DNA of 64,000 nucleotides from NCBI RefSeq assembly GCF_030345095.1, contig NZ_CP128360.1, positions 3,038,001-3,102,000 on the forward strand, read 5' to 3'. The notes below the pieces were generated by a model. It searched no databases. It worked only from the letters and a program-made list of their open reading frames with translations, and was not told where the DNA came from. Positions 18,554 to 35,989 of this stretch are shown here, in pieces; position 1 is the stretch's first letter; each line of letters opens with the position of its first letter. A program made the position numbers and the translations under genes. Origin of the DNA: Solwaraspora sp. WMMA2056. Lineage in GTDB: Bacteria; Actinomycetota; Actinomycetes; Mycobacteriales; Micromonosporaceae.

Positions 18554-18574
18554 CCTGCAACGGGGAGGCTTACC

Positions 18575-19951: not shown

Positions 19952-20089
19952 GCCAGCAGGGCGTACCAGAAGACTCTGGCGGACGTGGCACCGCGCCAGG
20001 GGTGAGGCACCAACCGTCACTGTCCGTCCACAACGGAATCAGTGCCCACGGTGAGGCATGAGCCTCCCGAACCCCCGGAGGAACGACTG

Positions 20090-23000
20090 ATGAGTAGATC
20101 CGCCCGGCGATGGCTTGCCGTCGCCGCGGGTGCGGCACTCGCCGCACCCATGATCACCACCGCGCCAGCGGTAGCCCACGACGGCCACGAGCACCACGAC
20201 GACTACCAGGTGCTGGTCTACACCCACAGCGAGGAGGCGGCCCAGCCGTCGACCGCCAAGGGTGTCAACGCCATCCGTACCCTCGGCAAGAACAACGGCT
20301 TCACTATCGACGTGTCCCGCAACGGGACCAGCTTCACCAGTGAGAACCTCGCCAACTACGCGGCAGTGGTGTTCATCAACAACACCGGTGACGTGCTCGA
20401 CGACGCGCAGCAGGAAGCGTTCGAGGACTACATCAAGGCCGGTGGCGGGTACCTCGGCGTGCACCTCGCGGTGGACGCCGAGCCGGACTGGGCCTTCTAC
20501 CGTGGCCTGGTAGGCACCACCTCGACCGGCACCACCGCCAACGGTGCCGGTGTCATCGACGTCGCTGACCGCTACCACCCGTCCACGGCGAAGATGCCCC
20601 GCGAAGTGATCGTCGAGGACGAGTACCTCAACTACACCGGCAACGTCCGGGGTGTGCAGCACGTGCTGGCCAGCGTCGACCCGACGTCGCTGGACGGCAG
20701 CAGCATGGGTGCCGACCACCCGATCTCCTGGTGCCAGGACTACCAGGGCGGCCGGTCCTGGTACACCGGTCTCGGCGCGTCGGCGGACACCTTCACCATC
20801 GGGGCGGTCCGCAAGCACCTGCTCGGTGGCATCGAATGGGCTGCGGGCATCGCCGAGGGCGACTGTGGCGCGACCGTCGAGTCGAACTACGAGCGGGTCG
20901 TGCTCAACGACCAGCCCGGTGAGCCGATGACACTCGCGGTGCTGCCCGACGGGCGGGTGCTGCACAACACCCGCGCCGGGGAGATCCGCCTGTACGACCC
21001 GGCGACCGGGGCCAGCCCGGTCATCAACAACCTCGACGTCTACCAGCACGACGAGGACGGCCTGCAGTCGGTGACCCTGGACCCCAACTTCGCGGAGAAC
21101 AAGTGGGTCTACCTCTACTACGCGCCACCGCTGGACACTCCGGTGGACGACCCGGCCACCCCGGGGGTCAACGAGGGCGACGCACCGGCCAACAGTGACG
21201 ACCCGAGCGTCTGGGAGCCGTTCAAGGGCTACAACCTGCTCTCCCGGGTCAAGTTCGTCGAAGAGCCGACCCCGCACCTGGACATGTCGACCGAGCAGGA
21301 AATCATCAAGGTCGACGTCGACCGCGGGGCGTGCTGCCACGTGGCCGGCGAGGTCAAGTTCGACGGTCGGGGCCTGCTCTACCTCGTCACCGGCGACGAC
21401 ACCAACGCCAGTGGCTCGGACGGCTACACCCCGATCAACCGGTCGGCCACTCGGGGTCCGGCCTATGATGCCGCGCGCTCCTCGGCCAACACCAACGATC
21501 TGCGGGGCAAGGTGCTGCGGATCCGCGTCAAGGACGACGGTAGCTACAGCATCCCGGCCGGCAACCTGTTCCGGGAGTCGCAGGACGTCGATGACAAGAC
21601 CCGTCCGGAGATCTTCCTGATGGGCCTGCGCAACCCCTTCCGGTTCGACGTCGACGACCGTGGCTTCGTTTACATCGGTGACTACTCGCCGGACTCGCGC
21701 AACCCGGACCCGCAGCGGGGCCCGGAGGGCACCGGCCGGTGGTTCGCGACCAAGACCGCAGGTAACTACGGCTGGCCGTACTGCTACTCGCCGACCCTGC
21801 CGTACGTCGACTACGACTTCGAGACGGAGACCTCAGGCGAGCCGTTCAACTGCGCCGCGCCGATCAACGACTCGCCGCGCAACACCGGTCTGAGTGTGCT
21901 GCCGCCGGTGGAGCAGCCGCAGTTCTGGTACACGTTCAACGCCACCACCACCTGCCGGGACAGCTACCTGGTCGACCCGGTCGGCAGCTGTGACTTCCAG
22001 TGGCCGGTGATCGGCACCGGCGGTGTCGGTCCGATGGGCGGCCCGATCTACAAGTACGACGAATCGCTGGAGTCGGAGTACAAGCTGCCGGCGTACTACC
22101 ACGACACGGTGTTCTTCGGCGAGTTCAGCCGGGACCGGATGTTCAACATGCGGACCAACGGCAGCGGCAAGTTCTTCGGTGTCGAGGCGTTCCTACCCGG
22201 CTTCACCTTCGACAACCCGATGGACATGGAGATCGGCCCGGACGGCACGCTGTACGTGCTGGACTACGGTGACGGCTTCTTCCGGGCCAACCCGGATGCC
22301 TCGCTGTACCAGATCCGGTACGTCAAGGGCACCCGCGGTCCGGTCGCCGAGCTCGACGCGAGCCCGACGTCCGGGCAGGCCCCGTTGACCGTGCAGTTCT
22401 CCAGCGAGGGTTCGTTCAGCCCCGAGGTGGGCGAGACGATCAGCATCGCCTGGGACTTCGACGGGGACGGCACCACCGACTCCACCGAGGCCAACCCGTC
22501 GTACACCTACACCAGCAACGGCGTGTACTACGCCCAGCTGACGGTGAGCGACTCGACGGGTAAGCAGGCGACGCTCAGCCGCACCATCACGGTCGGCAAC
22601 ACCGCTCCGACGGTGGAGGTCACCCTCCCGGTGTCCGGTTCCTTCTTCAACTGGGGCGACACGGTGCCGTACGCGGTGACCGTCACCGACCCCGAGGACG
22701 GCAGCATCGACTGTGACCGGGTGGAGGTCACCTTCGTACTCGGCCACGACGAGCACGGCCACCCGCAGACCAGCACCACCGGCTGCACCGGTACCTTGCC
22801 GACCCCGGCCGACGGTGCCGACCACGCTGGTAGCTACCTGTTCGGCGGCATCAGCGCCCGCTACACCGACCTGGGCGGCGGCGGCCAGCCGGCGTTGACC
22901 ACAGTCGGCCAGGCCACTATCCAGGTCTACCAGCAGCAGGCCGAGTACGCCCAGATCAAGCAGGGCGTCGAAACCTCCAACACCACCGACACCGGCGGCG

Positions 23001-23344
23001 GCCTGCACGTGTCCAGCATCGACGGCGACGACTACATCGCCTTCGATCCGATCAACCTCGACGGGATCGAGTCGCTGACCCTGCGGCACAGCCGAGGCTC
23101 CTCGTCGACCGTGGGTAACCCCCAGGCGATCGTCGAGGTGCGGGTCGACGCGCCGGACGGACCGTTGGTGGCCAGCACCACGCTGAACGCCACCTCCGGA
23201 TCGCGTGACTGGACCAGTCACGACGTCGCGATCGACCACCCGGCCGGGACACACCAGCTCTACCTGGTGTTCCGGACGGTGGACGGTGGTCCCGACAGCA
23301 ACCTGGTCTACCTCAACTGGGTGCAGTTCAACCCGGCGAGCTGA
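20090..23344 (+). CDS. Secreted ThuA / glucose-sorbosone dehydrogenase-like / PKD / CBM protein
   Basis: Multidomain exoprotein of 1084 residues. A signal peptide (MSRSARRWLAVAAGAALAAP to about residue 30) is followed by a ThuA/class-I-amidotransferase-like domain (about 35-265: VLVYTHSEEAAQPS, GGGYLGVHLAVDAEPDWAFY). Next is a six-bladed glucose/sorbosone dehydrogenase-like propeller (about 280-760: GEPMTLAVLPDGRVLHNTRA, FLMGLRNPFRFDVD). A PKD domain (about 765-860: WDFDGDGTTDS) and a C-terminal CBM6-like beta-sandwich follow. Such proteins occur in carbohydrate clusters, but their reaction is not established; PQQ-type oxidation is only a family guess. The start is ATG 20090 with CGGAGGAACGACTG. 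An in-frame ATG 16 codons earlier would spoil the signal peptide. Confidence 0.9.
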   Translation: MSRSARRWLAVAAGAALAAPMITTAPAVAHDGHEHHDDYQVLVYTHSEEAAQPSTAKGVNAIRTLGKNNGFTIDVSRNGTSFTSENLANYAAVVFINNTGDVLDDAQQEAFEDYIKAGGGYLGVHLAVDAEPDWAFYRGLVGTTSTGTTANGAGVIDVADRYHPSTAKMPREVIVEDEYLNYTGNVRGVQHVLASVDPTSLDGSSMGADHPISWCQDYQGGRSWYTGLGASADTFTIGAVRKHLLGGIEWAAGIAEGDCGATVESNYERVVLNDQPGEPMTLAVLPDGRVLHNTRAGEIRLYDPATGASPVINNLDVYQHDEDGLQSVTLDPNFAENKWVYLYYAPPLDTPVDDPATPGVNEGDAPANSDDPSVWEPFKGYNLLSRVKFVEEPTPHLDMSTEQEIIKVDVDRGACCHVAGEVKFDGRGLLYLVTGDDTNASGSDGYTPINRSATRGPAYDAARSSANTNDLRGKVLRIRVKDDGSYSIPAGNLFRESQDVDDKTRPEIFLMGLRNPFRFDVDDRGFVYIGDYSPDSRNPDPQRGPEGTGRWFATKTAGNYGWPYCYSPTLPYVDYDFETETSGEPFNCAAPINDSPRNTGLSVLPPVEQPQFWYTFNATTTCRDSYLVDPVGSCDFQWPVIGTGGVGPMGGPIYKYDESLESEYKLPAYYHDTVFFGEFSRDRMFNMRTNGSGKFFGVEAFLPGFTFDNPMDMEIGPDGTLYVLDYGDGFFRANPDASLYQIRYVKGTRGPVAELDASPTSGQAPLTVQFSSEGSFSPEVGETISIAWDFDGDGTTDSTEANPSYTYTSNGVYYAQLTVSDSTGKQATLSRTITVGNTAPTVEVTLPVSGSFFNWGDTVPYAVTVTDPEDGSIDCDRVEVTFVLGHDEHGHPQTSTTGCTGTLPTPADGADHAGSYLFGGISARYTDLGGGGQPALTTVGQATIQVYQQQAEYAQIKQGVETSNTTDTGGGLHVSSIDGDDYIAFDPINLDGIESLTLRHSRGSSSTVGNPQAIVEVRVDAPDGPLVASTTLNATSGSRDWTSHDVAIDHPAGTHQLYLVFRTVDGGPDSNLVYLNWVQFNPAS

Positions 23345-23714: not shown

Positions 23715-24878
23715 ATGCGAACCGGAGTCTGGCTGATCGGAGCCCGCGGCTCGGTCGCGGTCACCAGCATCGTCGGCGCGTTGGCACTGCGCGCCGGGCT
23801 GGCGGACGCCACCGGATGTGTCACGGAGCTGCCGCCGCTGCGCGGCCCGGCCCTGCCGGGCTTCGCCGACCTGGTCTTCGGCGGCCACGACATCGCCGCG
23901 ACGCCACTGGTCAAGAAGGCCGACGCGCTGGCCAGCGCCGGAGTCGTACCGGTCCGGCTGGTCACCGCGCTGCACACCGAGCTGGCCGGGATCGAACCGC
24001 AGATCCGACCGCTGCCGGCCCTGGCCACCCAGGCCGAGACGGCGGCGGCCATCACCGCCGACCTGACCGGCTTCCGGGACCGGCACCAACTCGACCAGGT
24101 CGTCGTCGTCAACGTCTCCACCACCGAGCCGGCGCCGCCACCGCACCCGGCACATCAGCGCCTCGACGCGCTGGTCGAGGCGCTGGCCGGGCCGGAGCCG
24201 GTGCTGCCACCGAGCGCGCTCGCCGCGTACGCGGCACTGCAGGCCGGCTGCGGCTACGTCGACTTCACCCCGTCGACCGGCGCCCGGCTGCCCGCCCTCG
24301 CCGAACTGGCCCGGCAACGCTCGGCGCCGTACGCCGGGCACGACGGCAAGACCGGCGAGACACTGGTCAAGGCGGTGCTCGCGCCGATGTTCGCGCTACG
24401 CAACCTGCAGGTACGCAGCTGGTCCGGCAGCAACCTGCTCGGCGGCGGCGACGGCGCCAACCTGGCCGAGCCGGCGGCCAACGCCGCCAAATCGGCCAGC
24501 AAGCAGCGGGTGCTCGCCGAGATCCTCGGCTACCAGCCGCAGGGCCACACCCGCATCGAGTACGTCGACGACATCGGTGACTTCAAGACCGCCTGGGACC
24601 TGATCACCTTCTCCGGCTTCCTCGGCACCGCCATGCGGATGGAGTTCACCTGGCACGGCTGTGACTCGGCGCTGGCCGCCCCGTTGGTGCTGGACCTGGC
24701 CCGGCTGACCGCCGCGGCGCAGCACGCCGGACGCAGCGGACCCCTGCCCGAGCTGGGCTTCTTCTTCAAGGATCCGATCGGCGACGGCCCGCACGCCCTG
24801 GGCGATCAGTGGCGGGTGCTCGTCGAGTTCGTCGCCGACCTGCAGGACCGGGCGGCCGACGCCGGCGGGGCACGCTGA
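23715..24878 (+). CDS. Myo-inositol-1-phosphate-synthase-like cyclase
   Basis: Protein of 387 residues of the inositol-3-phosphate synthase (Ino1/MIPS) family, which converts glucose 6-phosphate to inositol phosphate using NAD as internal oxidant. Seen: Rossmann start VWLIGARGSVAVTSIVGALA, VVNVSTTEP, GYVDFTPSTGA, the family core HDGKTGETLVKAVLAPMF, SWSGSNLLGGGDGANL, IEYVDDIGDFKTAWDLITFS, and CDSALAAPLVLDLARL. It heads the Ebo-type operon in the slot taken elsewhere by EboD, a 3-dehydroquinate-synthase-like cyclase. A housekeeping role is possible, but the tight coupling (TGATG with the UbiA gene) argues for cluster-specific chemistry. ATG 23715 follows GGAGG by 5 bases. Confidence 0.9.
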   Translation: MRTGVWLIGARGSVAVTSIVGALALRAGLADATGCVTELPPLRGPALPGFADLVFGGHDIAATPLVKKADALASAGVVPVRLVTALHTELAGIEPQIRPLPALATQAETAAAITADLTGFRDRHQLDQVVVVNVSTTEPAPPPHPAHQRLDALVEALAGPEPVLPPSALAAYAALQAGCGYVDFTPSTGARLPALAELARQRSAPYAGHDGKTGETLVKAVLAPMFALRNLQVRSWSGSNLLGGGDGANLAEPAANAAKSASKQRVLAEILGYQPQGHTRIEYVDDIGDFKTAWDLITFSGFLGTAMRMEFTWHGCDSALAAPLVLDLARLTAAAQHAGRSGPLPELGFFFKDPIGDGPHALGDQWRVLVEFVADLQDRAADAGGAR

Positions 24879-25816
24879 TGTCGGTACGGTGGCGCGACCT
24901 CGCCGAGCTGGTCCGGGCGCCGGCGGCGTTGTCCGTACCGGGTGACGTGGTGGCCGGCGCGGCCGCCGCCGGTGGGCTCGGACCGCGTACCGCCGGCCTG
25001 GCCGGCGCGTCGGTCTGCCTCTACTGGGCCGGCATGGCCGCCAACGACTGGGCCGACCGGGAGCTCGACGCGGTCGAACGGCCGACCCGGCCGATCCCGT
25101 CCGGCCGGGTCGCGCCGGGCACCGCGCTCGCCGTCGCGGCCGGGCTCACCACCGCCAGCCTCGCGGTGACCGCCGCCGTCGGTGGCCGTCGGGCTCTCGC
25201 CGTCGGGGTGCCGTTGACCGCCGCCGTCTGGGCGTACGACCTGTGGGCCAAGAACACCGCCGCCGGGCCGGCGGTGATGGCGACCTGCCGGGGCCTGGAC
25301 GTGCTGCTGGGGGCCGCCGGGTCCGGCCGGCTGCGGCCGGCGCTGCCCGCCGCGCTGGCGGTCGCCGCGCACACCTACACCGTCACCGAGCTGTCCCGCA
25401 GTGAAGTCAGTGGGGCCGACCCCCGGCTGCCGGCGGCGACGATCGCCGGCACCGCCGCGATCGCCGTGGCCGCCGTCGCACCGGCGGTCCGGCGACCCGC
25501 AGCGCCCGGGTCCGCAGCGGCAGGATCCACATCGGCCGGGGCCGGGCGCTGGTGGCGCGCGGCGGTCACCGCCGGCCTCGCCGGCTGGTACGCGGCCCGT
25601 TACGGTGCCGCGCAGGCGGCGGTGGCCCGCGATCCCGCACCGCACCAGGTGCAGGCCGCCGTCGGCGCCGGCATCGTCGGGCTGCCCGCCCTGCAGGGCG
25701 CGCTCACCGCCCGGTCGGCGGCGACGGCCACCGGCGCGGCGACCCTGGTCGGGCTCGCCGTGGCCGCCGCCGCACCGCTGGGCCGGCGGCTGGCCCGCCT
25801 GGTGTCGCCGACATGA
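24878..25816 (+). CDS. eboC: UbiA-like prenyltransferase, EboC
   Basis: Membrane prenyltransferase of 312 residues. The first Asp-rich motif is clear: NDWADRELDAVERPTRPIPS, with the downstream Gly-Arg (residues about 54-76). The second is represented by WAYDLWAKN. Around these are Ala/Gly-rich membrane helices. It should move a polyallyl group from a diphosphate donor to an acceptor inside the membrane. Its place next to eboA, eboB and eboE identifies it as the UbiA-like EboC. The start ATG 24878 shares a base with the preceding stop (TGATG) and its own end overlaps the next gene by ATGA. The natural donor could be the product of the polyprenyl synthase at 30885. Confidence 0.9.
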   Translation: MSVRWRDLAELVRAPAALSVPGDVVAGAAAAGGLGPRTAGLAGASVCLYWAGMAANDWADRELDAVERPTRPIPSGRVAPGTALAVAAGLTTASLAVTAAVGGRRALAVGVPLTAAVWAYDLWAKNTAAGPAVMATCRGLDVLLGAAGSGRLRPALPAALAVAAHTYTVTELSRSEVSGADPRLPAATIAGTAAIAVAAVAPAVRRPAAPGSAAAGSTSAGAGRWWRAAVTAGLAGWYAARYGAAQAAVARDPAPHQVQAAVGAGIVGLPALQGALTARSAATATGAATLVGLAVAAAAPLGRRLARLVSPT

Positions 25817-26790
25817 GCGCCGACCCGAGCGCCGCCCTCAGCGTCGACCCGAGCGTCGACACGTTGGCCGGGCTGCGGTTCGGCTACGGTACCAACGGTT
25901 TCGCCAACCACCGGTTGACCGACGCGCTGGCCCTGCTCGCCGACCTCGGCTACCAGGGCGTCGCCCTCACCCTCGACCACGACCACCTCGACCCGTACGC
26001 CCCCGATCTGCCCGCCACGGTGACCCGGGTCGCCGACCGGCTGCGTGACCTGGGCCTCGCGGTGGTCGTCGAGACCGGCGCGCGGTACCTGCTCGACCCG
26101 TGGCACAAGCACGCCCCGACCCTGCTGCACGACGCGGCCGCGCACCGGATCGACTTCCTGCGCCGGGCCGTGGCGATCGGCGCCGACCTCGGCGCGGAAG
26201 CGGTCTCCTTCTGGTCCGGGGTACGCCCGGCCGAGGTCGACGACGCCACCGCCTGGCAACGGCTGGTCGCTGGCTGCGCCTCCGTGGTCGACGCCGCCGA
26301 CACCGCCGGCGTCACCCTCGGCTTCGAACCCGAACCCGGCATGCTGGTGGCCGACATCGCCGACTGGCGGCGGCTGCGTACGGCACTCGGTGATCCGGCG
26401 CGGTTCGGCATCACCCTCGACATCGGGCACTGCCGTTGCCTGGAGCCGCTGCCGGTGCCGCAGTGCGTCACCGAGGTGGCCGCGCACCTGGTCAACGTTC
26501 AGATCGACGACATGCGCCGGGGCGTACACGAGCATCTCGAGTTCGGCACCGGCGAGATCGACTTTCCGCCGGTGCTGGCCGCCCTCGGCGCGGCCGGCTA
26601 CCGGGGCCTGGTCGCCGTCGAACTGCCCCGGCACTCGCACGCCGCCCCGGCGGTCGCCGCCCACTCCATCGAGTTTCTCCGTGCCGCCCAGCGCCGGGCC
26701 CTCGCCGGCACCGGCACCCGCGCGGCAGCCGGCACCGCCGCAGAGGCCGGCACCATCGCCGGCACCCGTGACGAAGGAGGCAAGTCGTGA
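25813..26790 (+). CDS. Sugar phosphate isomerase/epimerase-like TIM barrel
   Basis: Protein of 325 residues of the xylose-isomerase-like (AP endonuclease 2) family. Landmarks: LRFGYGTNGFANHRLTDALA, LADLGYQGVALTLDHDHLDP, GAEAVSFWSGVRP, VTLGFEPEPGMLV with the metal Glu, FGITLDIGHCRCLE with Asp/His ligands, VNVQIDDMRRGVHEHLEFG, and GLVAVELPRHSH. The Ala/Gly/Thr-rich tail of about 35 residues is probably disordered. ATGA overlap with eboC and GTGA overlap with eboA put it inside the operon. The cluster also holds EboE, another TIM barrel, so two distinct steps or substrates are likely. Confidence 0.88.
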   Translation: MSADPSAALSVDPSVDTLAGLRFGYGTNGFANHRLTDALALLADLGYQGVALTLDHDHLDPYAPDLPATVTRVADRLRDLGLAVVVETGARYLLDPWHKHAPTLLHDAAAHRIDFLRRAVAIGADLGAEAVSFWSGVRPAEVDDATAWQRLVAGCASVVDAADTAGVTLGFEPEPGMLVADIADWRRLRTALGDPARFGITLDIGHCRCLEPLPVPQCVTEVAAHLVNVQIDDMRRGVHEHLEFGTGEIDFPPVLAALGAAGYRGLVAVELPRHSHAAPAVAAHSIEFLRAAQRRALAGTGTRAAAGTAAEAGTIAGTRDEGGKS

Positions 26791-27458
26791 ACCAGCCCAC
26801 CGCGACCGCCGACCCCACCACCGTCGTGGCGCGACTCGTCGCCGCGCTGCACGACGTACCCGATCCGGACTGGCTCGCGCAGGCGCGGACCCGGATCGTG
26901 GCCGACCCGGCCGCCCTGCCGACGCTGTTCGCCGCGGTCGGCCGCCGCTGCGGCCGTGCCGACCTGGCCGGCGCGCCCGGCTGGAGCGCCGACGTCGCCG
27001 CCCGGGCGGTGCTGCTGGCCGATCTGGCCACCGTCACCGACGCGCAGACGCTGGCCGTCGCGGTGACCGACTGCTACCAGTACGGCGATGCCGCCGAACG
27101 CCGGGCGGTGCTCACCGCACTGCCGTTGCTGCCGATCGGTGACCGGGCGGTGCCGCTGCTGCACGACGCGATCCGTACCAACGACACCCGCCTGCTGGCC
27201 GCCGCGCTCGGCGACTACGCCCGCCACCTGGACCAGCCGGCGTGGCGGCAGGCGGTGCTGAAGTGCGTCTTCACCGGGGTGCCGCTGGCCGCCGTGCACG
27301 ACCTCGACGCCCGCGCCGACGCCGAGCTGCTGATCATGCTGACCGGACTGCACGACGAACGGGTCGCCGCCGGCCGGGCCCTGCCCGACGACGCGCTCGC
27401 CCTGCTGCGGCGACTGGAATCCGCCGCAGCGGACACGACCACCCGACAGGAGGGGTGA
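26787..27458 (+). CDS. eboA: EboA-domain protein
   Basis: Protein of 223 residues, helical and Ala-rich, with the EboA-family core: VAVTDCYQYGDAAERRAVLT, LPLLPIGDRAVPLLHDAIRT, TNDTRLLAAALGDYARHLDQ, and WRQAVLKCVFTGVPLAAV. EboA has no established biochemical activity; it is the marker protein of Ebo clusters, which in cyanobacteria are linked to moving scytonemin precursors to the periplasm. No signal peptide or membrane span is visible. The GTG start at 26787 overlaps the previous stop and is preceded by GAAGGAGG; eboB follows with no gap. Confidence 0.9.
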   Translation: MNQPTATADPTTVVARLVAALHDVPDPDWLAQARTRIVADPAALPTLFAAVGRRCGRADLAGAPGWSADVAARAVLLADLATVTDAQTLAVAVTDCYQYGDAAERRAVLTALPLLPIGDRAVPLLHDAIRTNDTRLLAAALGDYARHLDQPAWRQAVLKCVFTGVPLAAVHDLDARADAELLIMLTGLHDERVAAGRALPDDALALLRRLESAAADTTTRQEG

Positions 27459-28310
27459 ATGCGCATCTTCGACCCGCACATCCACATGACCTCGCGGACC
27501 ACCGACGACTACCAGGCAATGGCCGACGCCGGGGTCCGTGCCCTGGTCGAACCGGCGTTCTGGCTCGGCCAGCCGCGCACCAACGTCGGCTCCTTCGTCG
27601 ACTACTTCGACTCCCTGCTGGGGTGGGAACCGTACCGGGCCAGCCAGTTCGGCATCCGGCACTTCGCCACGCTGGCGTTGAACCCGAAGGAGGCCAACGA
27701 CCCCCGCTGCACGGGTGTGCTCGACGTGCTGCCCCGCTACCTGGTCAAGGACGGGGTGGTCGCGGTCGGTGAGATCGGCTACGACTCGATGACCCCGGCC
27801 GAGGACGAGGCGTTCGCCGCCCAGTTGGCGTTGGCCCGCGCGCACGAGCTGCCGGCCATGGTGCACACCCCGCACCGGGACAAGGCCCGGGGCACCGAAC
27901 GGACCCTCGCGGTGGTCGCCGAGTCCGGCATCGCACCCGGCCGGGTCGTCGTCGACCACCTCAACGAGGTGACGGTCGGGCTGGTCAAGGAGTCGGGCTG
28001 CTGGATGGGTTTCTCGATCTACCCGGAGACCAAGATGTCCCCGCCGCGAATGGTCGAGATCCTCAAGCAGTACGGCCCGGAGCGGATCCTGGTCAACTCG
28101 GCCGCCGACTGGGGCCGCTCCGACCCGCTGCTGACCCGCAGGACCGGCGAGGCGATGCTGGCCGCCGGCTTCAGCGACGACGACGTCGACCGGGTGCTGT
28201 GGCGCAACCCGGTGGAGTTCTACGGCCAGTCCGGTCGGCTGGACCTGGGCGACGTCGTCGCCCCCGCGCCGACCTTCGAAGGCAGTTCGATCATGCGCGG
28301 TGGTGGCTGA
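27459..28310 (+). CDS. eboB: TatD-like metal-dependent hydrolase, EboB
   Basis: Protein of 283 residues with an amidohydrolase/TatD-type TIM barrel. The metal site is visible as FDPHIHM (HxH), VGEIGYDSM (Glu), LPAMVHTPHRD (His), VVVDHLNE (His) and ILVNSAADWGRSDPL (Asp). TatD proteins are metal-dependent hydrolases; the Ebo member acts on an unknown substrate. It starts at ATG 27459, directly after the eboA stop and behind AGGAGGGG, and its TGA shares a base with the eboE ATG. Confidence 0.9.
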   Translation: MRIFDPHIHMTSRTTDDYQAMADAGVRALVEPAFWLGQPRTNVGSFVDYFDSLLGWEPYRASQFGIRHFATLALNPKEANDPRCTGVLDVLPRYLVKDGVVAVGEIGYDSMTPAEDEAFAAQLALARAHELPAMVHTPHRDKARGTERTLAVVAESGIAPGRVVVDHLNEVTVGLVKESGCWMGFSIYPETKMSPPRMVEILKQYGPERILVNSAADWGRSDPLLTRRTGEAMLAAGFSDDDVDRVLWRNPVEFYGQSGRLDLGDVVAPAPTFEGSSIMRGGG

Positions 28311-29476
28311 TGCGGCTCTCCGACCGGCACCGCCGTACGGTCCACCTCAGCTACTGCACCAACGTGCACCCGGCCGAGGACCTCGCCGGGGTGCTCGACC
28401 AGCTCGACACGTACGCGGTGCCGGTCCGCGCGCAGCTGGCCGCCGACCCGCTCTGCCTCGGACTGTGGCTGGCCGCGCCGGCCGCCGCCGCGCTGAACGC
28501 CGACCCGGCGGCCCGCCGCCGGCTGCGGGCCGCGCTCACCGACCGGGGCCTGGAAGTGGTCACCCTCAACGGATTCCCGTACGAGGCGTTCCAGGCGCCG
28601 GTGGTCAAACACGCCGTCTACCACCCGGACTGGGCCGACCCGCGTCGGCTCGACTACACGTTGGCGCTGGCCCGGATCCTCGCCGACCTGATGCCCGACG
28701 ACGCCGAGCGCGGCTCCATCTCCACCCTGCCGTTGGCCTGGCGCGAGCCGTGGGACCGCGACCGGGCCGACGCCTGCGCCCGGATGCTGGACCGGTTGGC
28801 CGCCGGACTGGCCGACGTCGAACGGGAGACCGGCAGGGCCGTCCGGGTCGGCTTCGAACCCGAACCGGGCTGCGCCGTGGAGACCACCGCCCAGGCCGCG
28901 CAGCTGCTGGCCGGCGTCGACACCGACCGGCTCGGCGTCTGCGTCGACCTGGCTCACCTGGCCTGCGCATGGGAGGAGCCGGTCGCTGCGGTCGGCCGGC
29001 TGCGGGCCGCCGGGCTGCCGGTGGTCAAGGTCCAGGTGTCGGCCGCGCTGGAGGTCACCGACCCGGTCCGCGACCGGTCCGCGATCGCCGGGTACGTCGA
29101 ACCACGGTTCCTGCACCAGACCCGGTCGGGTGTTGCCGGGGCGACCGACGATCTCGATGCCGCACTCGACGCCGCGCTGCCCGGCCCGTGGCGGGTGCAC
29201 TACCACGTGCCGCTGCACGCCGCGCCGGTCGCGCCACTGGCCGCAACGATGCCGCAGCTGCGAGCCGGTCTCGCCGCGGTCGTCGACGGCACCGACTGCG
29301 ACCACTTCGACGTGGAGACCTACACCTGGGGGGTGCTGCCGCAAGGGCAACGCCCCAGCGGGCCGGCGCAGCTCGCCGCCGGGATCGCCGCCGAGCTCGC
29401 GCAGGCCCGCGACGAACTGGTCGCGCTCGGCCTGGACGCCCGCACCCGTACCGCCGCCGGATCGGAGGCCACATGA
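28310..29476 (+). CDS. eboE: EboE metabolite-traffic TIM-barrel protein
   Basis: Protein of 388 residues. The opening HLSYCTNVHPAEDLAGVLDQ is the hallmark of EboE. It is followed by GLWLAAPAA, VVTLNGFPYEAFQ, ISTLPLAWREPWDRDRADAC, VGFEPEPGCAVE, LGVCVDLAHLACAWEEP and VHYHVPLHA, with metal-ligand Glu/Asp/His placements of the xylose-isomerase-like fold. The catalytic reaction is not known. It starts with TGATG overlap and ends with ATGA overlap to the phosphodiesterase. Confidence 0.93.
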   Translation: MRLSDRHRRTVHLSYCTNVHPAEDLAGVLDQLDTYAVPVRAQLAADPLCLGLWLAAPAAAALNADPAARRRLRAALTDRGLEVVTLNGFPYEAFQAPVVKHAVYHPDWADPRRLDYTLALARILADLMPDDAERGSISTLPLAWREPWDRDRADACARMLDRLAAGLADVERETGRAVRVGFEPEPGCAVETTAQAAQLLAGVDTDRLGVCVDLAHLACAWEEPVAAVGRLRAAGLPVVKVQVSAALEVTDPVRDRSAIAGYVEPRFLHQTRSGVAGATDDLDAALDAALPGPWRVHYHVPLHAAPVAPLAATMPQLRAGLAAVVDGTDCDHFDVETYTWGVLPQGQRPSGPAQLAAGIAAELAQARDELVALGLDARTRTAAGSEAT

Positions 29477-30888
29477 ACCCGCTGCTCGTGCTCGACGTGG
29501 TCGGGCTGACCCCCCGGCTGCTGCGCCACATGCCCCGGCTCGCGGCGCTGGCCGACACCGGTTTCCAGGCCGAACTCGGCACCGTCCTGCCGGCGGTCAC
29601 CTGCTCGGTGCAGTCGACGTTCCTCACCGGTGAGACGCCGGCCGGGCACGGCATCGTCGGCAACGGCTGGTACTTCCGCGACCTCGGTGAGGTGTTCCTG
29701 TGGCGCCAGCACAACGCCCTGGTCGGCGGGGAGAAGCTGTGGCACGCCGCCCGCCGGGTCCGCCCCGAATACACGGTGGCGAACATCTGCTGGTGGTACG
29801 CCATGGGTGCGGACGTCAACTGGACGGTCACGCCCCGGCCGATCTACCACGCCGACGGGCGCAAGGACCCGGACTGCTACACCGACCCGCCGGAGCTGCA
29901 CGACGAGTTGACCGGCCGGCTCGGCACGTTCCCGCTCTTCTCCTACTGGGGTGCGGGTGCCGGCCTGGTGTCGTCGGAGTGGATCGCGAAGGCGACCCGG
30001 CAGATCATGGCCGACCATTCGCCGGACCTGACCCTGGCGTACCTGCCGCATCTTGACTACGACCTGCAACGGTACGGCGGCGACGGTCCGCACGCGCAGC
30101 GGGCGGCGGCCGAACTCGACGCGGTGCTCGCCCCGCTGCTGGACGCGGCGGCGGCGCGCGGCACGACCGTGGTGGCGTTGTCCGAGTACGGCATCACCGA
30201 CGTGTCGCAGCCGGTGCACGTCAACCGGTTGCTGCGTGCCGAAGGTCTGCTGCGGGTCTACACCCAGGCCGGAATGGAGTACCTCGACCCGTGGACGTCG
30301 CGGGCGTTCGCCGTCGCCGACCATCAGATCGCCCACGTGTACGTACGGGATCCGGCCGACGTGCCGGCGGTGGCCGCGCTCTGCGCCGGGCTGCCCGGGG
30401 TGGCGCAGGTCCTCGACGCCGACGGCAAGGCGGCGGCCGGGCTGGACCATCCGCGCTCCGGCGAACTGGTGCTGGTCGCCGAGCCGCAGGCCTGGTTCAC
30501 CTACTACTACTGGCGTGACGACGCGGCGGCCCCGGACTTCGCCCGGTTGGTGGAGATCCACCGCAAACCCGGCTACGACCCGGCGGAGCTGCTGTTCGAC
30601 CCGGCCAATCCGGGCGCGGCGAAGGCGCGGGCGGCGATCGCCCTGGCCCGCAAGAAGGTCGGCCTGCGGTACACGATGAACGTGGTCGGACTGGACGCCG
30701 GCGCGCGGGCGGTCCGTGGCTCGCACGGCCGGCTGCCGGCCGATCCCGCCGACGGTCCGGTGCTGCTCTGCTCGGACCCGGCGGTGGCCCGTGACCGCGT
30801 CGCCGCCACCGAGGTCAAGTCGTTGCTGCTGGAGTTGGCCGGCCTCGGCGACGCGGTGCGTGCCCCGGCGACGGAGGCGGCCCGGTGA
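29473..30888 (+). CDS. Nucleotide-pyrophosphatase/phosphodiesterase-like protein (EboF-type)
   Basis: Alkaline-phosphatase superfamily protein of 471 residues. Seen: LLVLDVVGLTPRLLRHMPRL with the first metal Asp, the nucleophile region LPAVTCSVQSTFLTGETPAG then HGIVGNGW, LAYLPHLDYDLQRYG, and VALSEYGITDVSQPVHVNR. In the last motif SEYGI replaces the SDHG of classical nucleotide pyrophosphatases. It would hydrolyse a phosphodiester or phosphoanhydride, for example on a phosphorylated cyclitol or prenyl diphosphate intermediate; this is inference. No signal peptide is seen, so it acts in the cytoplasm. It corresponds by position and fold to the phosphodiesterase of other Ebo clusters. Confidence 0.87.
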   Translation: MNPLLVLDVVGLTPRLLRHMPRLAALADTGFQAELGTVLPAVTCSVQSTFLTGETPAGHGIVGNGWYFRDLGEVFLWRQHNALVGGEKLWHAARRVRPEYTVANICWWYAMGADVNWTVTPRPIYHADGRKDPDCYTDPPELHDELTGRLGTFPLFSYWGAGAGLVSSEWIAKATRQIMADHSPDLTLAYLPHLDYDLQRYGGDGPHAQRAAAELDAVLAPLLDAAAARGTTVVALSEYGITDVSQPVHVNRLLRAEGLLRVYTQAGMEYLDPWTSRAFAVADHQIAHVYVRDPADVPAVAALCAGLPGVAQVLDADGKAAAGLDHPRSGELVLVAEPQAWFTYYYWRDDAAAPDFARLVEIHRKPGYDPAELLFDPANPGAAKARAAIALARKKVGLRYTMNVVGLDAGARAVRGSHGRLPADPADGPVLLCSDPAVARDRVAATEVKSLLLELAGLGDAVRAPATEAAR

Positions 30889-31955
30889 CCGTCGCCCCGG
30901 CCCGCCCCGGCAGCGTGTCGCCGCTGCGGGCCCGGTGCGACGCGGAGTTGACGGCGTTCCTGGACCGGCAGGACCCGCACTGGCCGGACGGGGCACCGCG
31001 CGGGGTGTACGACACATTGCGCCGGTTCGTTCTGGTCGGCGGTAAGCGGCTGCGGCCCACGTTCTGCTACTGGGGGTGGCGCGGTGCCGGCGGCGCCGAC
31101 TGCCGGGAGATCGTCGCGGCCGCCGCCGCGCTGGAGATCTTCCACGCGTTCGCGCTGATCCACGACGACATCATGGACGGCAGCGACTGCCGTCGGGGTG
31201 AGCCATCGGTGCACCGGGTCTTCGCCGACCTGCACACCCGGTCGGCCTGGCGGGGCGATTCCGGCCGGTACGGGCACAGTGCCGCGCTGCTCTGCGGTGA
31301 CCTCTGCGCCGCGTGGGCGGACCAGATGTTCCACGAGTGTGGCCTCGACGCGGAGCAGATCCGGCGCGGCTACGCGGTCTTCGCCGGGATGCGCACCGAG
31401 GTGATCGCCGGTCAGTACCTGGACCTGGTCTCCGGTGTCGGCGACGGTTCGGTGGCCAGTGCGCTGACGGTAATCCGGATGAAAGCCGCCAGATACACGG
31501 TTACCCGACCATTGCAGATCGGTGCTGCCCTAGCTGGGGCTGGACCTGAACTGCTGGCCGCGTACGCTGCCTTCGGTGATCCACTGGGCGATGCCTTTCA
31601 GCTCCGCGACGACGTACTCGGGGTGTTCGGCGATCCCACGGTCACCGGCAAGTCGGTGCTCGACGATCTGCGAGAGGGCAAGTCGACGGTGATGATGGCG
31701 CTGGCCCGCAACATGGCGGACCGTGGTCAGACCGTGCGGCTGCGAGAACTGTTCGGCAACCCGGAGCTGGACGCCGCCGGGGCCGACGAGCTGCGCACGA
31801 TCATCGTCGACACCGGGGCGCTTGAGGCGATCGAGCAGATGATCCGGATTCGTACCCAGGAAGCGGTGACCATTCTCGTCGATGCGTCGTTGACCCCCGA
31901 GACGCGTACGGAATTGACCGCCCTGGCTGAGTCGGTGGCTGAGCGGCAGCGCTGA
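30885..31955 (+). CDS. Polyprenyl diphosphate synthase
   Basis: All-alpha trans-isoprenyl diphosphate synthase of 356 residues. The first Asp-rich motif lies in FALIHDDIMDGSDCRRGEPS (DDIMD) and the second in GDAFQLRDDVLGVFGD (DDVLG..D). VGGKRLRPTFCYW binds substrate, and KSVLDDLREGKSTVM closes the active site. It condenses IPP with an allylic diphosphate; chain length cannot be read securely, with geranylgeranyl or farnesyl most likely. It is the last gene of the Ebo-type operon, joined by GTGA overlap, so it presumably supplies the donor for the UbiA-like enzyme. A 23-base gap separates it from the first polysaccharide gene. Confidence 0.92.
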   Translation: MTVAPARPGSVSPLRARCDAELTAFLDRQDPHWPDGAPRGVYDTLRRFVLVGGKRLRPTFCYWGWRGAGGADCREIVAAAAALEIFHAFALIHDDIMDGSDCRRGEPSVHRVFADLHTRSAWRGDSGRYGHSAALLCGDLCAAWADQMFHECGLDAEQIRRGYAVFAGMRTEVIAGQYLDLVSGVGDGSVASALTVIRMKAARYTVTRPLQIGAALAGAGPELLAAYAAFGDPLGDAFQLRDDVLGVFGDPTVTGKSVLDDLREGKSTVMMALARNMADRGQTVRLRELFGNPELDAAGADELRTIIVDTGALEAIEQMIRIRTQEAVTILVDASLTPETRTELTALAESVAERQR

Positions 31956-31978: not shown

Positions 31979-33232
31979 GTGGCCATCCCCCATCAGGTTA
32001 CTGGGAATTCCCGCCCGGTCGACCAGGAAGGTGCCGAGACCGGCACGGGGTACCGGCCCCTGCGCATCGCCATGATCGGCCAGAAGGGGATGCCCGCGAC
32101 CTACGGCGGGATCGAGCGGCACGTCGAGGAGCTCGCCAGCCGGCTGGCCGGCCGGGGCCACGACGTCACGGTCTACTGCCGGCCCAGCTACGGCTCCGTG
32201 CCGATGGACCGATACCGGGGCGTACGGCTGCGTCAGGTACGGACGGTTGCCAGCAAACACCTCGACGCCATCGTGCACTCCACCACCTCCACCCTCGCCG
32301 CCATGCGCGAACGGCCCGACATCGTGCACTACCACGGACTCGGCCCCGGCCTGGTCGCGCCACTGCCGCGCTACCTCGCCCGCAGCAAGGTCGTCCTCAC
32401 CGTGCACGGCCTCGACCAGCAGCGGGCCAAGTGGAGCCGGCTCGCTCAGACCGTCCTCGGCACCGCCCACTGGCTCTCCGGCTACGTACCCGACGCCCGG
32501 GTCGCCGTCTCCCGGGGGCTGGCCAGCCACTACCAGACCCGGTTCGGCAGCCTGGCCAACTACATCCCCAACGGGGTCAGCACCCCCCGGCAGGTCCCGG
32601 CCCGGCACATCGGTTCCCGGTTCGGCCTCACCCCCGGGCGCTACCTGCTGATGGTCGGCCGGCTCGTTCCGGAAAAGTCGGCGGACCTGCTGGTCCGCGC
32701 GTTCCGTCAGGTCGACACCGACATCCGGTTGGCCATCGTCGGCGGGTCGTCGTTCAGCGACGACTTCGTCGCCCGGGTCCGCGCCGAAGCGGTCGACGAC
32801 CCGCGGATCGTGTTCACCGGCTTCGCCTACGGCGACCTGCTCGCCGAGCTCTACTCGCACGCCGCCGGGTTCGTCCAGCCGTCCCGGCTGGAAGGGCTGC
32901 CGCTGACCCTGCTGGAAGCCGCCTCGTACGGTCTGCCGGTGATCGCCAGCGACATCACCCCGCACGTCGAGGTGCTCACCACCGACGGACCCGGCCACCG
33001 GATCTTCCGCGACGGCGACACCGACGACCTGGTCCGGGCACTGCGCCAACTGGTCACCGACCCGGCCGGCGAGCGGGTCGGAGCCCAGGCCCTACGCGAC
33101 CGGGTCACCAGCGAGTACACCTGGGACGCCGCCGCCACCGAACTCGAGACGCTCTACCACGAACTGCTGCAACCGCGTCGGACACCGCTGATCCGGCCCC
33201 GCCGTAAGGTCCGGTCGGAACCAGACGGCTGA
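31979..33232 (+). CDS. GT4-family glycosyltransferase
   Basis: Protein of 417 residues with the retaining GT-B fold. The N-terminal half starts IAMIGQKGMPATYGGIERHV, the DUF1972/rhamnosyltransferase-like N-domain, with VLTVHGLDQQRAKWS. The C-terminal half has YLLMVGRLVPEKSADLLVRA and the EX7E-type end QPSRLEGLPLTLLEAASYGL. It probably builds the repeat unit of the surface polysaccharide made by the following Wzy/Wzz/Wzx-like genes. The start is GTG 31979 with AAGGAGG 4 bases before it. Only 23 bases separate it from the Ebo-type operon, so read-through is possible. Confidence 0.92.
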   Translation: MAIPHQVTGNSRPVDQEGAETGTGYRPLRIAMIGQKGMPATYGGIERHVEELASRLAGRGHDVTVYCRPSYGSVPMDRYRGVRLRQVRTVASKHLDAIVHSTTSTLAAMRERPDIVHYHGLGPGLVAPLPRYLARSKVVLTVHGLDQQRAKWSRLAQTVLGTAHWLSGYVPDARVAVSRGLASHYQTRFGSLANYIPNGVSTPRQVPARHIGSRFGLTPGRYLLMVGRLVPEKSADLLVRAFRQVDTDIRLAIVGGSSFSDDFVARVRAEAVDDPRIVFTGFAYGDLLAELYSHAAGFVQPSRLEGLPLTLLEAASYGLPVIASDITPHVEVLTTDGPGHRIFRDGDTDDLVRALRQLVTDPAGERVGAQALRDRVTSEYTWDAAATELETLYHELLQPRRTPLIRPRRKVRSEPDG

Positions 33233-33340
33233 TGCGCACTCCCGGCGTGTCGGCCCATACTCCCTCATCGGGGACCCGACTAGATTTCAGGCGACCCTGA
33301 CGGGCCGTTTCCAGGCGACGGAACAGCGGATCGGCGTGCG

Positions 33341-34852
33341 GTGACCACAACACGACACGAGCCCCGGCCAGCGGGTCGGGTGCCGGACGACGCCATGGCG
33401 TCCGGCGGCTCCGCCGTACCCGGTCATGCCCGACCCGCGCGGACGGCCGGGCGGGTGCTCAGCCTGCTCGCCGCGGTGGCCGCCGCCGCCGTCGCGGTCG
33501 CCGCCGGCCTGGCGCTCGCCGCCGGGGACCGGCGCGGCGTGGTCCTGCCGCTGGCGCTGACCGCCGGCCTCGCCGTCGGGGTCCTGGCGATGACCCGGTT
33601 CTCCGGGTACGTGATCCTGATGCTCGCCGTGCGGCCCCTGCTGGACGTGGTCAAACTCAGCGGACCCACGGCCGGGCGGGCAGACACCGAGCAGGCGTCC
33701 CGGCTGACCGACCCGTCGACGATGGTGGCGGTGCTGTTCCTGCTCGCCGCCGGGCTCTGGCTCGCCGCGCAGTTGCGCCGCCGGGGCCGGCTGCGCGGCT
33801 CCCCGCTGGGCTGGGCGATGCTGCTCGTCGGGGCGACCGCCCTGGTCAGCGCGTTCGGTGCGGACCGGCCGACGCCGAGCCTGCTGGAAGCGCTGCGGAT
33901 CATGACCGTCGTCGTCATGTTCGTCGTTCTCGAGCAGTTGATGCCCGACCGGGCGGCGATCCGGCGGATCCTGATCGCCTGCTACGCCTCGCTGGCCCTG
34001 GCTCTGCTCTACACCGTGCTGACCAGCGCCTTCGGGCAGGTGCCGTCCGAGGTCAAAGGTGAGTTCATCCGGGTCAGTGGCCCGTTCAGCCAGTCCACCA
34101 CCTTCGGCCGGTACCTGATGTTCCTGGTGATCTTCGGGTTCGCGATCTACCGGTTCCTGGCCCGGCGGGCCCAGGTGGCGCTCGCCGTACTGCTCGGGCT
34201 CTCCCTGATCTTCCTGATGCTCACCAACACCCGGTCGGCGATCCTCGGCGCGGCACTCGGCCTGATCGTCGTCGCGCTGCTGCACCGCAGCGGCCGGATG
34301 CTGGCGACCTTGCTGATCGTCGCGGTCGCCGGGGTCAGCCTGCTGCCGTCGGTGGGTGACCGGTTCGCCCAACTCGCCCAGGACCGGCCGACCGGCGGCG
34401 GCCCGACCGGCAACACCCTGCAGTGGCGGGTGGGCTACTGGGCGGAGATCATCCCGCTCGCCAACCGCAACCCGGTCACCGGCATCGGGCCCAACATGAC
34501 CCAGCACGAGACACCGCAGGCCAAGAAGCCACACAACGACCTGCTCCGGGCGTACGTGGAAACCGGGCTCGCCGGCCTGCTCGCCTACCTGGCGATGCTG
34601 CTGTTGCTGCTGCACACCGCCCGGACCGCGCTGCGCCGCGCCCCACCGGGCAGTCTGGAACGGGGCGTCGCCGTCGGATTCGCCGGCTGCGCCGTATCGT
34701 TCATCGCGGTCAGCCTCGGCTCGAACGTCATCTCCAACGTGGTGACACTCTGGTACTTCGTCGCCTTCGCCGCTGCCGCCAGCGCCATCGCCCACGGCCG
34801 GGCCGCCACTGCGTCGGTGGCCGCCCCGGCACCACCAGTCCGGTACGAGTAG
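33341..34852 (+). CDS. O-antigen ligase / Wzy-polymerase-like membrane protein
   Basis: Protein of 503 residues with about twelve hydrophobic segments and a long periplasmic loop after the central helices. LALLYTVLTSAFGQVPSEVK precedes FIRVSGPFSQSTTFGRYLMF, then SLIFLMLTNTRSAILGAALG, and the Wzy_C motif region NPVTGIGPNMTQHETPQAKK with PHNDLLRAYVETGLAG. This is the usual signature of O-antigen ligases and exopolysaccharide polymerases. The start is GTG 33341. It lies between a glycosyltransferase and a chain-length regulator. Confidence 0.88.
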   Translation: MTTTRHEPRPAGRVPDDAMASGGSAVPGHARPARTAGRVLSLLAAVAAAAVAVAAGLALAAGDRRGVVLPLALTAGLAVGVLAMTRFSGYVILMLAVRPLLDVVKLSGPTAGRADTEQASRLTDPSTMVAVLFLLAAGLWLAAQLRRRGRLRGSPLGWAMLLVGATALVSAFGADRPTPSLLEALRIMTVVVMFVVLEQLMPDRAAIRRILIACYASLALALLYTVLTSAFGQVPSEVKGEFIRVSGPFSQSTTFGRYLMFLVIFGFAIYRFLARRAQVALAVLLGLSLIFLMLTNTRSAILGAALGLIVVALLHRSGRMLATLLIVAVAGVSLLPSVGDRFAQLAQDRPTGGGPTGNTLQWRVGYWAEIIPLANRNPVTGIGPNMTQHETPQAKKPHNDLLRAYVETGLAGLLAYLAMLLLLLHTARTALRRAPPGSLERGVAVGFAGCAVSFIAVSLGSNVISNVVTLWYFVAFAAAASAIAHGRAATASVAAPAPPVRYE

Positions 34853-34866
34853 TAGGAGCCCATAGC

Positions 34867-35988: not shown

Positions 35989-35989
35989 C

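Follow-up and report, generated by a model that had tools for sequence, protein, structure and literature searches.

The 64,000-nucleotide stretch of DNA analysed here (the window) contains an operon that combines Ebo genes with a homologue of myo-inositol-1-phosphate synthase (MIPS, or Ino1), designated INO, and has no gene for the cyclase EboD. Does INO take the place of EboD, and what would such an operon make? The operon is sequentially composed of eight plus-strand genes at positions 23715-31955 and follows a probable functional neighbour.

20042..23344, plus strand: probable functional neighbour, a protein with ThuA, glucose/sorbosone dehydrogenase, PKD and CBM6 domains (Pfam)
23715..24878, plus strand: INO, Ino1/myo-inositol-1-phosphate synthase homologue, first gene of the operon (387 aa; PF07994, PF01658)
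24878..25816, plus strand: EboC-like UbiA-superfamily prenyltransferase of the SCO3242 family (312 aa; NF045897)
25813..26790, plus strand: TIM1, TIM-barrel enzyme of the xylose-isomerase-like type, partner of INO (325 aa; PF01261)
26787..27458, plus strand: EboA-domain protein (223 aa, GTG start; NF035938)
27459..28310, plus strand: EboB, TatD-like metal-dependent hydrolase (283 aa; PF01026)
28310..29476, plus strand: EboE, TIM-barrel protein (388 aa; NF035939, PF01261)
29473..30888, plus strand: EboF, type I phosphodiesterase/nucleotide pyrophosphatase family (471 aa; PF01663)
30885..31955, plus strand: accessory short-chain prenyl diphosphate synthase (356 aa; PF00348)

The earlier note had described these eight genes as coupled and in this order, and all are found so. 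Neighbouring genes overlap by 1 or 4 bases at six of the seven junctions; the overlaps claimed throughout do not extend to EboA and EboB, which abut with zero overlap (27458/27459). A GGAGG- or GAGG-like stretch lies ahead of five of the eight starts. The gene set is not a chance assembly, because it is seen again in most of the actinobacterial EboE loci examined.

The operon resembles the Ebo (EDB) operon eboABCDEF, whose distribution spans several phyla and includes algal plastids (PMC5133447). EboE passes its equivalog model (NF035939, 406.3 bits; cut-off 250), and the EboA domain passes NF035938 (150.4 bits; cut-off 50). EboA fails the narrower family NF035937 (72.4; cut-off 320), and the EboA of an Azospirillum EboD cluster is likewise below that cut-off (107.6). 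EboB (PF01026, 46.6 bits) is 42% identical to a TatD-type protein, and EboF (PF01663, 214.6 bits) is 55% identical to EboF, of an EboD-type Deinococcus cluster. Neither matches an Ebo-specific model; both are clustered with the rest and homologous to their counterparts in EboD-type clusters. The presence of EboA, EboB, EboE, EboF and an EboC-like UbiA protein in one operon, and the prenylated-cyclitol logic proposed for it, agree with the Ebo operon (PMC5133447, PMC6282210). The window operon differs in the lack of EboD, the presence of INO and TIM1, the SCO3242-family UbiA protein and the extra prenyl diphosphate synthase. EboA has no Pfam match, and its predicted model is all-helical (pLDDT 95.3). 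This fold was discarded as a clue to function, having no PDB match at E ≤ 0.001.

The UbiA protein matches PF01040 and passes NF045897, "SCO3242 family prenyltransferase" (360.6 bits; cut-off 260), and fails the EboC model NF035940 (110.4 bits; cut-off 250). The latter cut-off is narrow, since the UbiA protein of the EboD-type Azospirillum cluster scores just 89.1. The models that come next score so far below cut-off (52.2 bits for a prenyltransferase model, 51.6 for GGGP geranylgeranyltransferase, 46.7 for chlorophyll synthase) that they provide only a lead to the type of acceptor. The prenyl diphosphate synthase (PF00348, 159.8 bits) has FPP synthase 8f8f and GGPP synthase 3lk5 as its top PDB matches. 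Its homologues occur in 24 of 80 EboE loci, the best 80 of at least 580 relatives, and 22 of them lie on the strand of the operon. The UbiA-superfamily protein and the operon-borne prenyl synthase, as predicted from their domains, would favour prenylation. A precedent for prenylation of a cyclitol-derived unit by a UbiA-superfamily enzyme is the BE-40644 pathway, which differs in using an EEVS-type cyclase and a UbiA-superfamily farnesyltransferase other than EboC (PMC5133447). Against a cyclitol acceptor, the EboC homologue Ubi-297 farnesylates quinolines in crude membranes (PMC9235831).

EboD is absent from both the operon and the genome. All 15 candidates were scored, and the best reaches 121.6 bits, compared with 467.7 for the EboD of genome G381. 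These scores and the single DHQ_synthase match of the whole genome, located beyond the window at C1:5083612, rule out a hidden EboD elsewhere. An eboD gene beside a second Ebo set, which would have spoken against the earlier note, is not encountered, as the genome yields neither. The operon is therefore an Ebo-like variant and not a canonical member of eboABCDEF.

Two Pfam domains, both above the Pfam cut-offs (PF07994, 160.6 bits; PF01658, 107.4 bits), and four catalytic lysines place INO, as judged from its sequence, in the MIPS fold family. Its top PDB match is the archaeal-type MIPS of A. fulgidus (1u1i, E 8.6e-69), with two aligned segments that together cover most of the length. K259, K263, K291 and K352 of INO align with K274, K278, K306 and K367 of 1u1i, and the four lysines are invariant across 15 aligned Ino1 proteins. 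INO differs from 1u1i in its operon context and in the replacement of E57 by Asp, which counts against the chemistry proposed below. Rings other than inositol are also obtainable from MIPS relatives, another point against that chemistry. An example is Ari2 (6k96; a weak match to INO, E 1.7e-12), reportedly a five-membered-cyclitol-phosphate synthase of secondary metabolism that is related to MIPS and acts on fructose 6-phosphate.

With its MIPS lysines intact, INO could make ordinary inositol phosphate, and it might be a spare or stress-specific myo-inositol synthase for ordinary metabolism (phosphatidylinositol, mycothiol) whose location in the operon is incidental. Such a role is highly improbable. 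The genome contains a separate mycothiol-type Ino1 that passes the equivalog TIGR03450 (652.9 bits; cut-off 638), ruling out INO as the housekeeping synthase; INO scores 25 bits on that model, is 22-26% identical to the mycothiol-type copy and is separated from it by a very long branch. INO also neighbours Ebo genes in Gemmatirosa and in different actinobacterial families. Among 396 Actinomycetota genomes, with up to four first-look candidates scored per genome, INO of the operon kind occurs in 17, and all 17 have EboE. INO is thus not a sole housekeeping synthase conserved without Ebo genes, a possibility that had been raised against the replacement of EboD.

The same 396 genomes contain EboD once and never both genes. 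Beyond Actinomycetota, the survey consists of plasmid records. INO occurs in 29 and EboD in 15 of 47 plasmid records with EboE, while none has both and three have neither; these counts are inflated by many near-identical Streptomyces plasmids. In the 80 EboE loci that are the best of at least 580 relatives, INO is found at 54 loci and EboD at none; the 80 loci are all actinobacterial going by titles, and EboD-type chromosomes fall outside this sample. The mutual exclusion anticipated by the earlier note therefore holds in every set tested. The replacement itself involves a pair of genes rather than the Ino1-like gene alone, since TIM1 is present in 29/29 INO-type plasmid records and 0/15 EboD-type records. 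On these gene distributions, functional replacement of EboD by a two-gene module, INO and TIM1, holds up as the probable arrangement.

TIM1 (PF01261, 128.7 bits) has seven residues, E172, E174, D203, H206, H239, H241 and E270, that are invariant in 34 aligned rows. Its predicted model (pLDDT 89.7) is nearest in fold to the L-xylulose-5-P 3-epimerase UlaE and ketose 3-epimerases. Equivalog models for inosose dehydratase IolE and ketose 3-epimerases are not passed (TIGR04379, 27.2 bits against a cut-off of 290; others likewise below cut-off). TIM1 and EboA are fused at five loci, and such a fusion in actinobacteria is also reported in PMC5133447.

We favour, with modest confidence, a reading in which the INO-TIM1 module functionally replaces EboD and the operon makes a cyclitol or cyclitol phosphate that is then prenylated by the UbiA enzyme. 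Gemmatirosa locus L046 is counted as support. It carries INO and TIM1, yet its EboE groups with five EboD-type proteins in a six-row clade (100/100), suggesting an exchange of modules in an EboE lineage of the EboD side.

INO is not a constant member of the operon, although most loci have it. Of 63 EboE loci whose upstream sequence is long enough, 11, all in Streptomyces, lack it, which counts against a swap. TIM1 is kept in ten of these loci and a UbiA match in all. Among 12 genomes with INO-less operons, 11 have a second INO-type gene elsewhere and one, draft genome G401, has none; a place in the operon is thus not obligatory for INO. Six of the 12 INO-less operons contain an inositol-monophosphatase-family gene and an FAD oxidoreductase gene upstream of UbiA, a pair seen at no other locus. 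S. canus L098 has instead an intradiol dioxygenase and a YceI gene there, also unique to it. No substitute cyclase was found among the genes upstream of UbiA at L103 and L098.

These INO-less loci could indicate that the INO-TIM1 pair is an add-on for tailoring. The module would supply a separate cyclitol head group, the EboD function would be lost or unneeded, and the two cluster types would yield different products through a common EboA, B, C, E and F prenylation/export machinery. We regard this as possible but doubtful. It would account for the ten INO-less loci that still bear TIM1, for the separate curated family of the UbiA protein and for variable neighbourhoods, which include an adenylation-domain (NRPS) gene at L050, type II PKS genes at L051 and ScyD/ScyE with a multicopper oxidase at L045. 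It also agrees with the use of the module by other clusters. INO and TIM1 occur together at L202-L208, the seven loci one score tier below (six of them YcaO-type clusters), and also in the YcaO-type clusters L174, L176 and L178, which equally speaks for the partnership on which the favoured reading relies. Since YcaO-type clusters with the pair lack any Ebo gene, the module is not confined to Ebo operons. This, and the absence of TIM1 from the sequence read at five more distant Ino1 loci (L209-L213), counts against the replacement of EboD. However, an add-on leaves unexplained why no sample combines EboD and INO in one cluster, why Gemmatirosa pairs the module with an EboD-side EboE, and why nearly all INO-less Streptomyces genomes keep an INO-type gene elsewhere.

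For the replacement of EboD by INO and TIM1, we infer the following chemistry. INO would convert glucose 6-phosphate into inositol phosphate or a close relative, and TIM1, as a ketose-epimerase-like enzyme, may adjust the ring by epimerising or isomerising it at a keto form. To this cyclitol the UbiA enzyme would attach a prenyl chain, which is probably C15-C20 and for which the prenyl diphosphate synthase of the operon would be the source here. Trimming or dephosphorylation of the prenylated cyclitol may fall to EboB, EboE and EboF, with EboA as a putative helical scaffold. What results would be a lipid, a prenylated cyclitol (phosphate), that acts in the membrane and plausibly serves extracytoplasmic steps as a carrier or cofactor. 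One point against the replacement is that the ring made by MIPS is phosphorylated and that made by known EboD-type cyclases dephosphorylated, which prevents their first products from being identical. With a second ring-making module unrelated to EboD, the Ebo product class is narrowed to one reachable from both heptulose phosphate and glucose 6-phosphate. INO is an assayable enzyme of a well-studied family and laboratory Streptomyces hosts are genetically tractable, making the hidden Ebo product testable.

The INO-TIM1 variant is not described in the literature searched, which did not extend to subscription journals and preprints, and "inositol" has 0 occurrences in the Ebo literature text-searched. 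It was rightly called new in this sense, but it is not rare, and public records annotate its genes one by one. Gene content suggests that this cyclase-swapped, Ebo-like version is widespread, being carried by many soil actinobacteria. S. coelicolor SCO3242 is the namesake of NF045897, the family whose cut-off the UbiA protein of the window exceeds. Genes SCO3237-SCO3243, which we take to lie inside the CDA cluster, probably form the same operon type, going by annotation, and differ from the window operon in their location within an NRPS cluster. SCO3242 is annotated as "Putative transferase" and SCO3243 as "Myo-inositol phosphate synthase" (PMC3610822); the set is never termed Ebo in the literature searched.

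Three haloarchaeal plasmids (Halobaculum, Natronococcus and Halocatena) have a comparable set of six genes, for TatD, TIM, UbiA, TIM, INO and phosphodiesterase proteins, a recurrence across domains that supports the favoured reading. It is conceivable, if speculative, that bacteria and haloarchaea share a pathway family for membrane-bound prenylated cyclitols with interchangeable ring modules, EboD starting from heptulose phosphate or INO and TIM1 from glucose 6-phosphate.

Glycosyltransferase, Wzy, Wzz and Wzx-like genes lie downstream of the operon in the window and also at L070 and L073. Together with the frequent dehydrogenase-like neighbour bearing carbohydrate-binding domains, they might suggest that the main role of the operon is transport, in line with a proposal for scytonemin precursors in Nostoc, and that its enzymes build a lipid carrier only to bring a metabolite specific to the cluster, or a polysaccharide unit, through the membrane. 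This is unlikely as the main explanation. The operon itself has no transporter gene, polysaccharide gene matches of at least 250 bits occur at only those two other loci, and the cyclase swap is left unexplained, although transport is compatible with the replacement of EboD. A bolder extension of the cross-domain pathway is that TIM1 would convert the INO product to an enolisable keto-cyclitol whose C-prenylation would give a quinone-like redox lipid for adjoining dehydrogenase-like proteins. The gene pqqC, which would bear on whether the dehydrogenase-like neighbour depends on PQQ, is present in 2/17 genomes and absent from that of the window. Among loci with 9 kb on both sides, homologues of the 20042..23344 protein are found at 28 of 45 with INO and at none of 11 without it.

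The window operon contains eight genes. The gene order and close coupling described in the earlier note are confirmed, except that overlaps of one or four bases occur at six of the seven junctions and EboA and EboB abut instead. The operon and its neighbors are arranged as follows.

20042-23344, upstream of the operon: ThuA, glucose/sorbosone dehydrogenase, PKD and CBM6 protein (Pfam domains)
23715-31955, + strand: Ebo-like operon of eight genes (Pfam and NCBIfam identities)
Operon gene 1, + strand: INO, Ino1-type protein (Pfam, NCBIfam)
Operon gene 2, + strand: UbiA prenyltransferase (Pfam, NCBIfam)
Operon gene 3, + strand: TIM1, xylose-isomerase-like TIM barrel
Operon gene 4, + strand: EboA-domain protein
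Operon gene 5, + strand: EboB, TatD-type
Operon gene 6, + strand: EboE
Operon gene 7, + strand: EboF, phosphodiesterase
Operon gene 8, + strand: polyprenyl synthetase (Pfam/NCBIfam)
31979-37588, directly downstream of the operon: glycosyltransferase, Wzy (O-antigen ligase), Wzz and Wzx-like polysaccharide genes

Curated models recognize EboE and the EboA domain above cut-off. The UbiA protein lies over the cut-off of the SCO3242-family model and under that of the EboC model, which is also missed by the UbiA protein of the EboD-type Azospirillum cluster. In S. coelicolor, SCO3237-3243 presumably form this operon type. Public annotation names the genes of INO-type clusters singly.

The genome, of which the window covers bases 3038001-3102000, is a single contig of 7.01 Mb with one EboE and two Ino1 genes; its relatives put it in Actinomycetota, close to Micromonosporaceae. 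The second Ino1 passes the cut-off of the mycothiol Ino1 equivalog (652.9 versus 638 bits), whereas INO scores 25 bits against this model and shares 22-26% identity with the second protein. INO is thus not the housekeeping Ino1. Neither EboD nor a second Ebo set was found in the genome; its only DHQ-synthase match sits elsewhere. In a 57-row tree, the INO proteins encoded in Ebo-like operons of actinobacteria group together in a single clade (28 rows, 100/97), well separated from the housekeeping Ino1 rows. Among solved structures, A. fulgidus MIPS is the closest in sequence. MIPS lysines serve the oxidation and cyclization of hexose phosphate; K274, K278, K306 and K367 of the A. fulgidus enzyme align with K259, K263, K291 and K352 of INO, which are invariant across 15 aligned proteins, and its E57 corresponds to an aspartate. 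In S. coelicolor, InoA is encoded separately, in the operon SCO3899/3900 (PMC7581861, in part).

The earlier note claimed that an Ino1-like protein replaces the EboD cyclase and that the two exclude each other. Among 396 genomes drawn evenly from Actinomycetota, EboE is present in 19 (18 above cut-off). INO-level matches, defined as at least 470 bits or a pair of adjacent fragments scoring about 340 and 145 bits, occur in 17 genomes, all carrying EboE; the query was a 12-row alignment to which six of the 17 supplied a row, inflating their scores. EboD (E ≤ 1e-60) is found in one genome, G381, with EboE and without INO. No genome contains both cyclases. Each of the two scans scored no more than four first-look candidates for any genome, and scoring every EboD candidate in the 19 EboE genomes leaves the outcome unchanged. 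EboE and INO are associated with p = 6e-28 (Fisher's test, kinship ignored). The nineteenth EboE genome, G279, has a broken EboE and, on another contig, an INO-like gene of the next score tier. Counted per locus, the 20 EboE loci comprise 17 with INO, one with EboD and two with neither. The EboD-type cluster of G381 (L043) lies within Actinomycetota, and its EboE groups with Deinococcus (100/99); the sequences suggest horizontal transfer.

The exclusion also holds on plasmids, of which 72,556 records were searched by tblastn. The window EboE matched 47 and the Azospirillum EboE 48; INO is present in 44, TIM1 in 37, and EboD, when at least 44% identity is required, in 16 among the matches listed. 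The next EboD matches drop to 36%, and 85 further records rank below those listed. The 47 EboE records divide into 29 with INO, 15 with EboD, none with both and three, all Streptomyces, with neither. INO-type records come from Streptomyces (25), Embleya (2), Nonomuraea (1) and Gemmatirosa (1), and EboD-type records from Ketogulonicigenium (5), Mycetohabitans (3), Salipiger (2), Deinococcus (2), Azospirillum, Roseivivax and Aureibacter. Near-copies are common among the Streptomyces plasmids; counted by genus, INO has four and EboD seven. A Gloeothece plasmid has EboD without EboE.

Every one of the 29 INO-type Ebo plasmid records has TIM1, and the 15 EboD-type records all lack it. The cyclase swap is real and general within the sample, but is better described as the INO+TIM1 pair in place of EboD than as the exchange of a single gene. 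The pair also occurs outside Ebo clusters. At the next INO score tier, seven genomes contain both genes in the same stretch; six of these stretches also contain YcaO, Gfo/Idh/MocA and HD-like genes, which L206 (G279) lacks. TIM1 proteins, whether from Ebo or YcaO clusters, fall into a single clade (99/98); one outgroup row of that tree is very long. In Gemmatirosa, of a different phylum, INO and TIM1 overlap by one base, and EboE clusters with five EboD-type EboE proteins (100/100). From these sequences one or two exchanges are possible, the branching order inside the EboE clade being unsettled. TIM1 and EboA are fused in a single reading frame at five loci (L086, L053, L075, L166 and L026); actinobacterial fusions of this type are noted in the available part of PMC5133447.

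The YcaO-type cluster is composed of INO, HD-like, Gfo/Idh/MocA, YcaO and TIM1 genes, mostly with MBL-fold and PIG-L genes too. It is found in Roseomonas (L178, 4968-14280), Methylobacterium (L174), Hymenobacter (L176) and six Actinomycetota genomes (L202-L205, L207 and L208). The YcaO protein has no match in any Ebo locus, and five more distant Ino1 loci (L209-L213) show neither TIM1 nor YcaO in the stretch read.

An EboE-alignment search of genome contigs extended the comparison to the best 80 of at least 580 loci, all actinobacterial by title: INO is present in 54 and EboD in none. Where 6.5 kb or more precedes EboE (63 loci), INO is present in 52 (51 of these with TIM1) and absent from 11, all Streptomyces. 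Together with G128, these 11 make 12 genomes with an INO-less operon. Eleven of the 12 encode a second Ino1 in the INO score band; none was found in G401. In nine of the 11 it is part of, or next to, another set of these operon genes, and in G397 and G398 it is accompanied by a dehydrogenase-like gene, the stretch read containing no Ebo genes.

Six of the 12 INO-less operons (L103, L028, L100, L105, L108 and L111, Streptomyces) are preceded by an inositol-monophosphatase-family gene and an FAD oxidoreductase gene, a pair seen at no other locus. In S. canus (L098, 5756-6424), a YceI-domain gene, absent from the other loci, lies directly upstream of the UbiA gene; the YceI family is linked to polyisoprenoid binding.

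UbiA enzymes are intramembrane prenyltransferases. In the putative pathway, INO would form a cyclitol phosphate, TIM1 would modify it and the UbiA enzyme would prenylate the product. The predicted fold of TIM1 (pLDDT 89.7) resembles ketose 3-epimerases. The next-best models for the UbiA protein include, weakly, those of GGGP transferases, and since these enzymes create ether links with a polyol phosphate, they provide a lead for O-prenylation. Counting against this lead, an EboC homolog farnesylates quinolines in crude membranes, according to PMC9235831.

Yurchenko et al. proposed an isoprenoid-cyclitol as the product of EboD and EboC; the portion available (PMC5133447) also notes operons without eboD and describes eboA/eboG exclusion, and 'inositol' has zero occurrences in its text. 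The word is likewise absent from the part of PMC6092422 (ISME) at hand. An mBio article, consulted in part, ties ebo to scytonemin export (PMC6282210). A transcriptome table in PMC3610822 (excerpt) lists SCO3242 and SCO3243 among the CDA-cluster genes, and the excerpt of PMC6457490 holds nothing further on the SCO3237-3243 operon. No description of the INO-type cluster was found in the literature searched.

An archaeal counterpart of the INO-type cluster merits separate study. Five haloarchaeal plasmid records contain an INO relative (43-46% identity). In Halobaculum, Natronococcus and Halocatena, genes for a TatD hydrolase, two TIM barrels, UbiA, INO and a phosphodiesterase adjoin; two Halomarina INO records are without this set, and Haladaptatus has the set with INO missing. 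The Natronococcus TatD, UbiA, INO and phosphodiesterase match their bacterial counterparts, and no EboA match was found in its set. Against the EboC and SCO3242 models its UbiA protein reaches 197 and 161, in each case below cut-off. Both its TIM barrels are closer to TIM1 than to EboE (at most 28.4 bits to the EboE model NF035939).

Among loci for which 9 kb is available on both sides, homologs of the 20042-23344 protein (at least 300 bits) are present at 28 of 45 with INO versus none of 11 without it. In 10 of 17 INO genomes a homolog lies no more than about 10 kb from the operon, versus about 0.24 expected on an assumption of five copies per 7 Mb, kinship not accounted for. The side on which these homologs lie varies by lineage, upstream in some and downstream in others. 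They track INO rather than the Ebo genes as such, and in Streptomyces G397 and G398 the homolog accompanies INO even apart from the Ebo operon. pqqC was found in only two of 17 genomes. The four polysaccharide genes downstream recur at L070 and L073 only.

On a Streptomyces camelliae plasmid (L045, 6224-18450), the operon lies beside a ScyD/ScyE-family gene, an aromatic prenyltransferase gene and a multicopper oxidase gene, a neighborhood resembling the scytonemin setting. A tet(W/32/O) resistance prediction there (18472-18795) shares its coordinates with a 2Fe-2S protein gene and is probably spurious. On a plasmid of Streptomyces sp. NBC_01244 (L052), EboE stands next to type II polyketide genes with no further Ebo gene in the stretch, and looks like a remnant.
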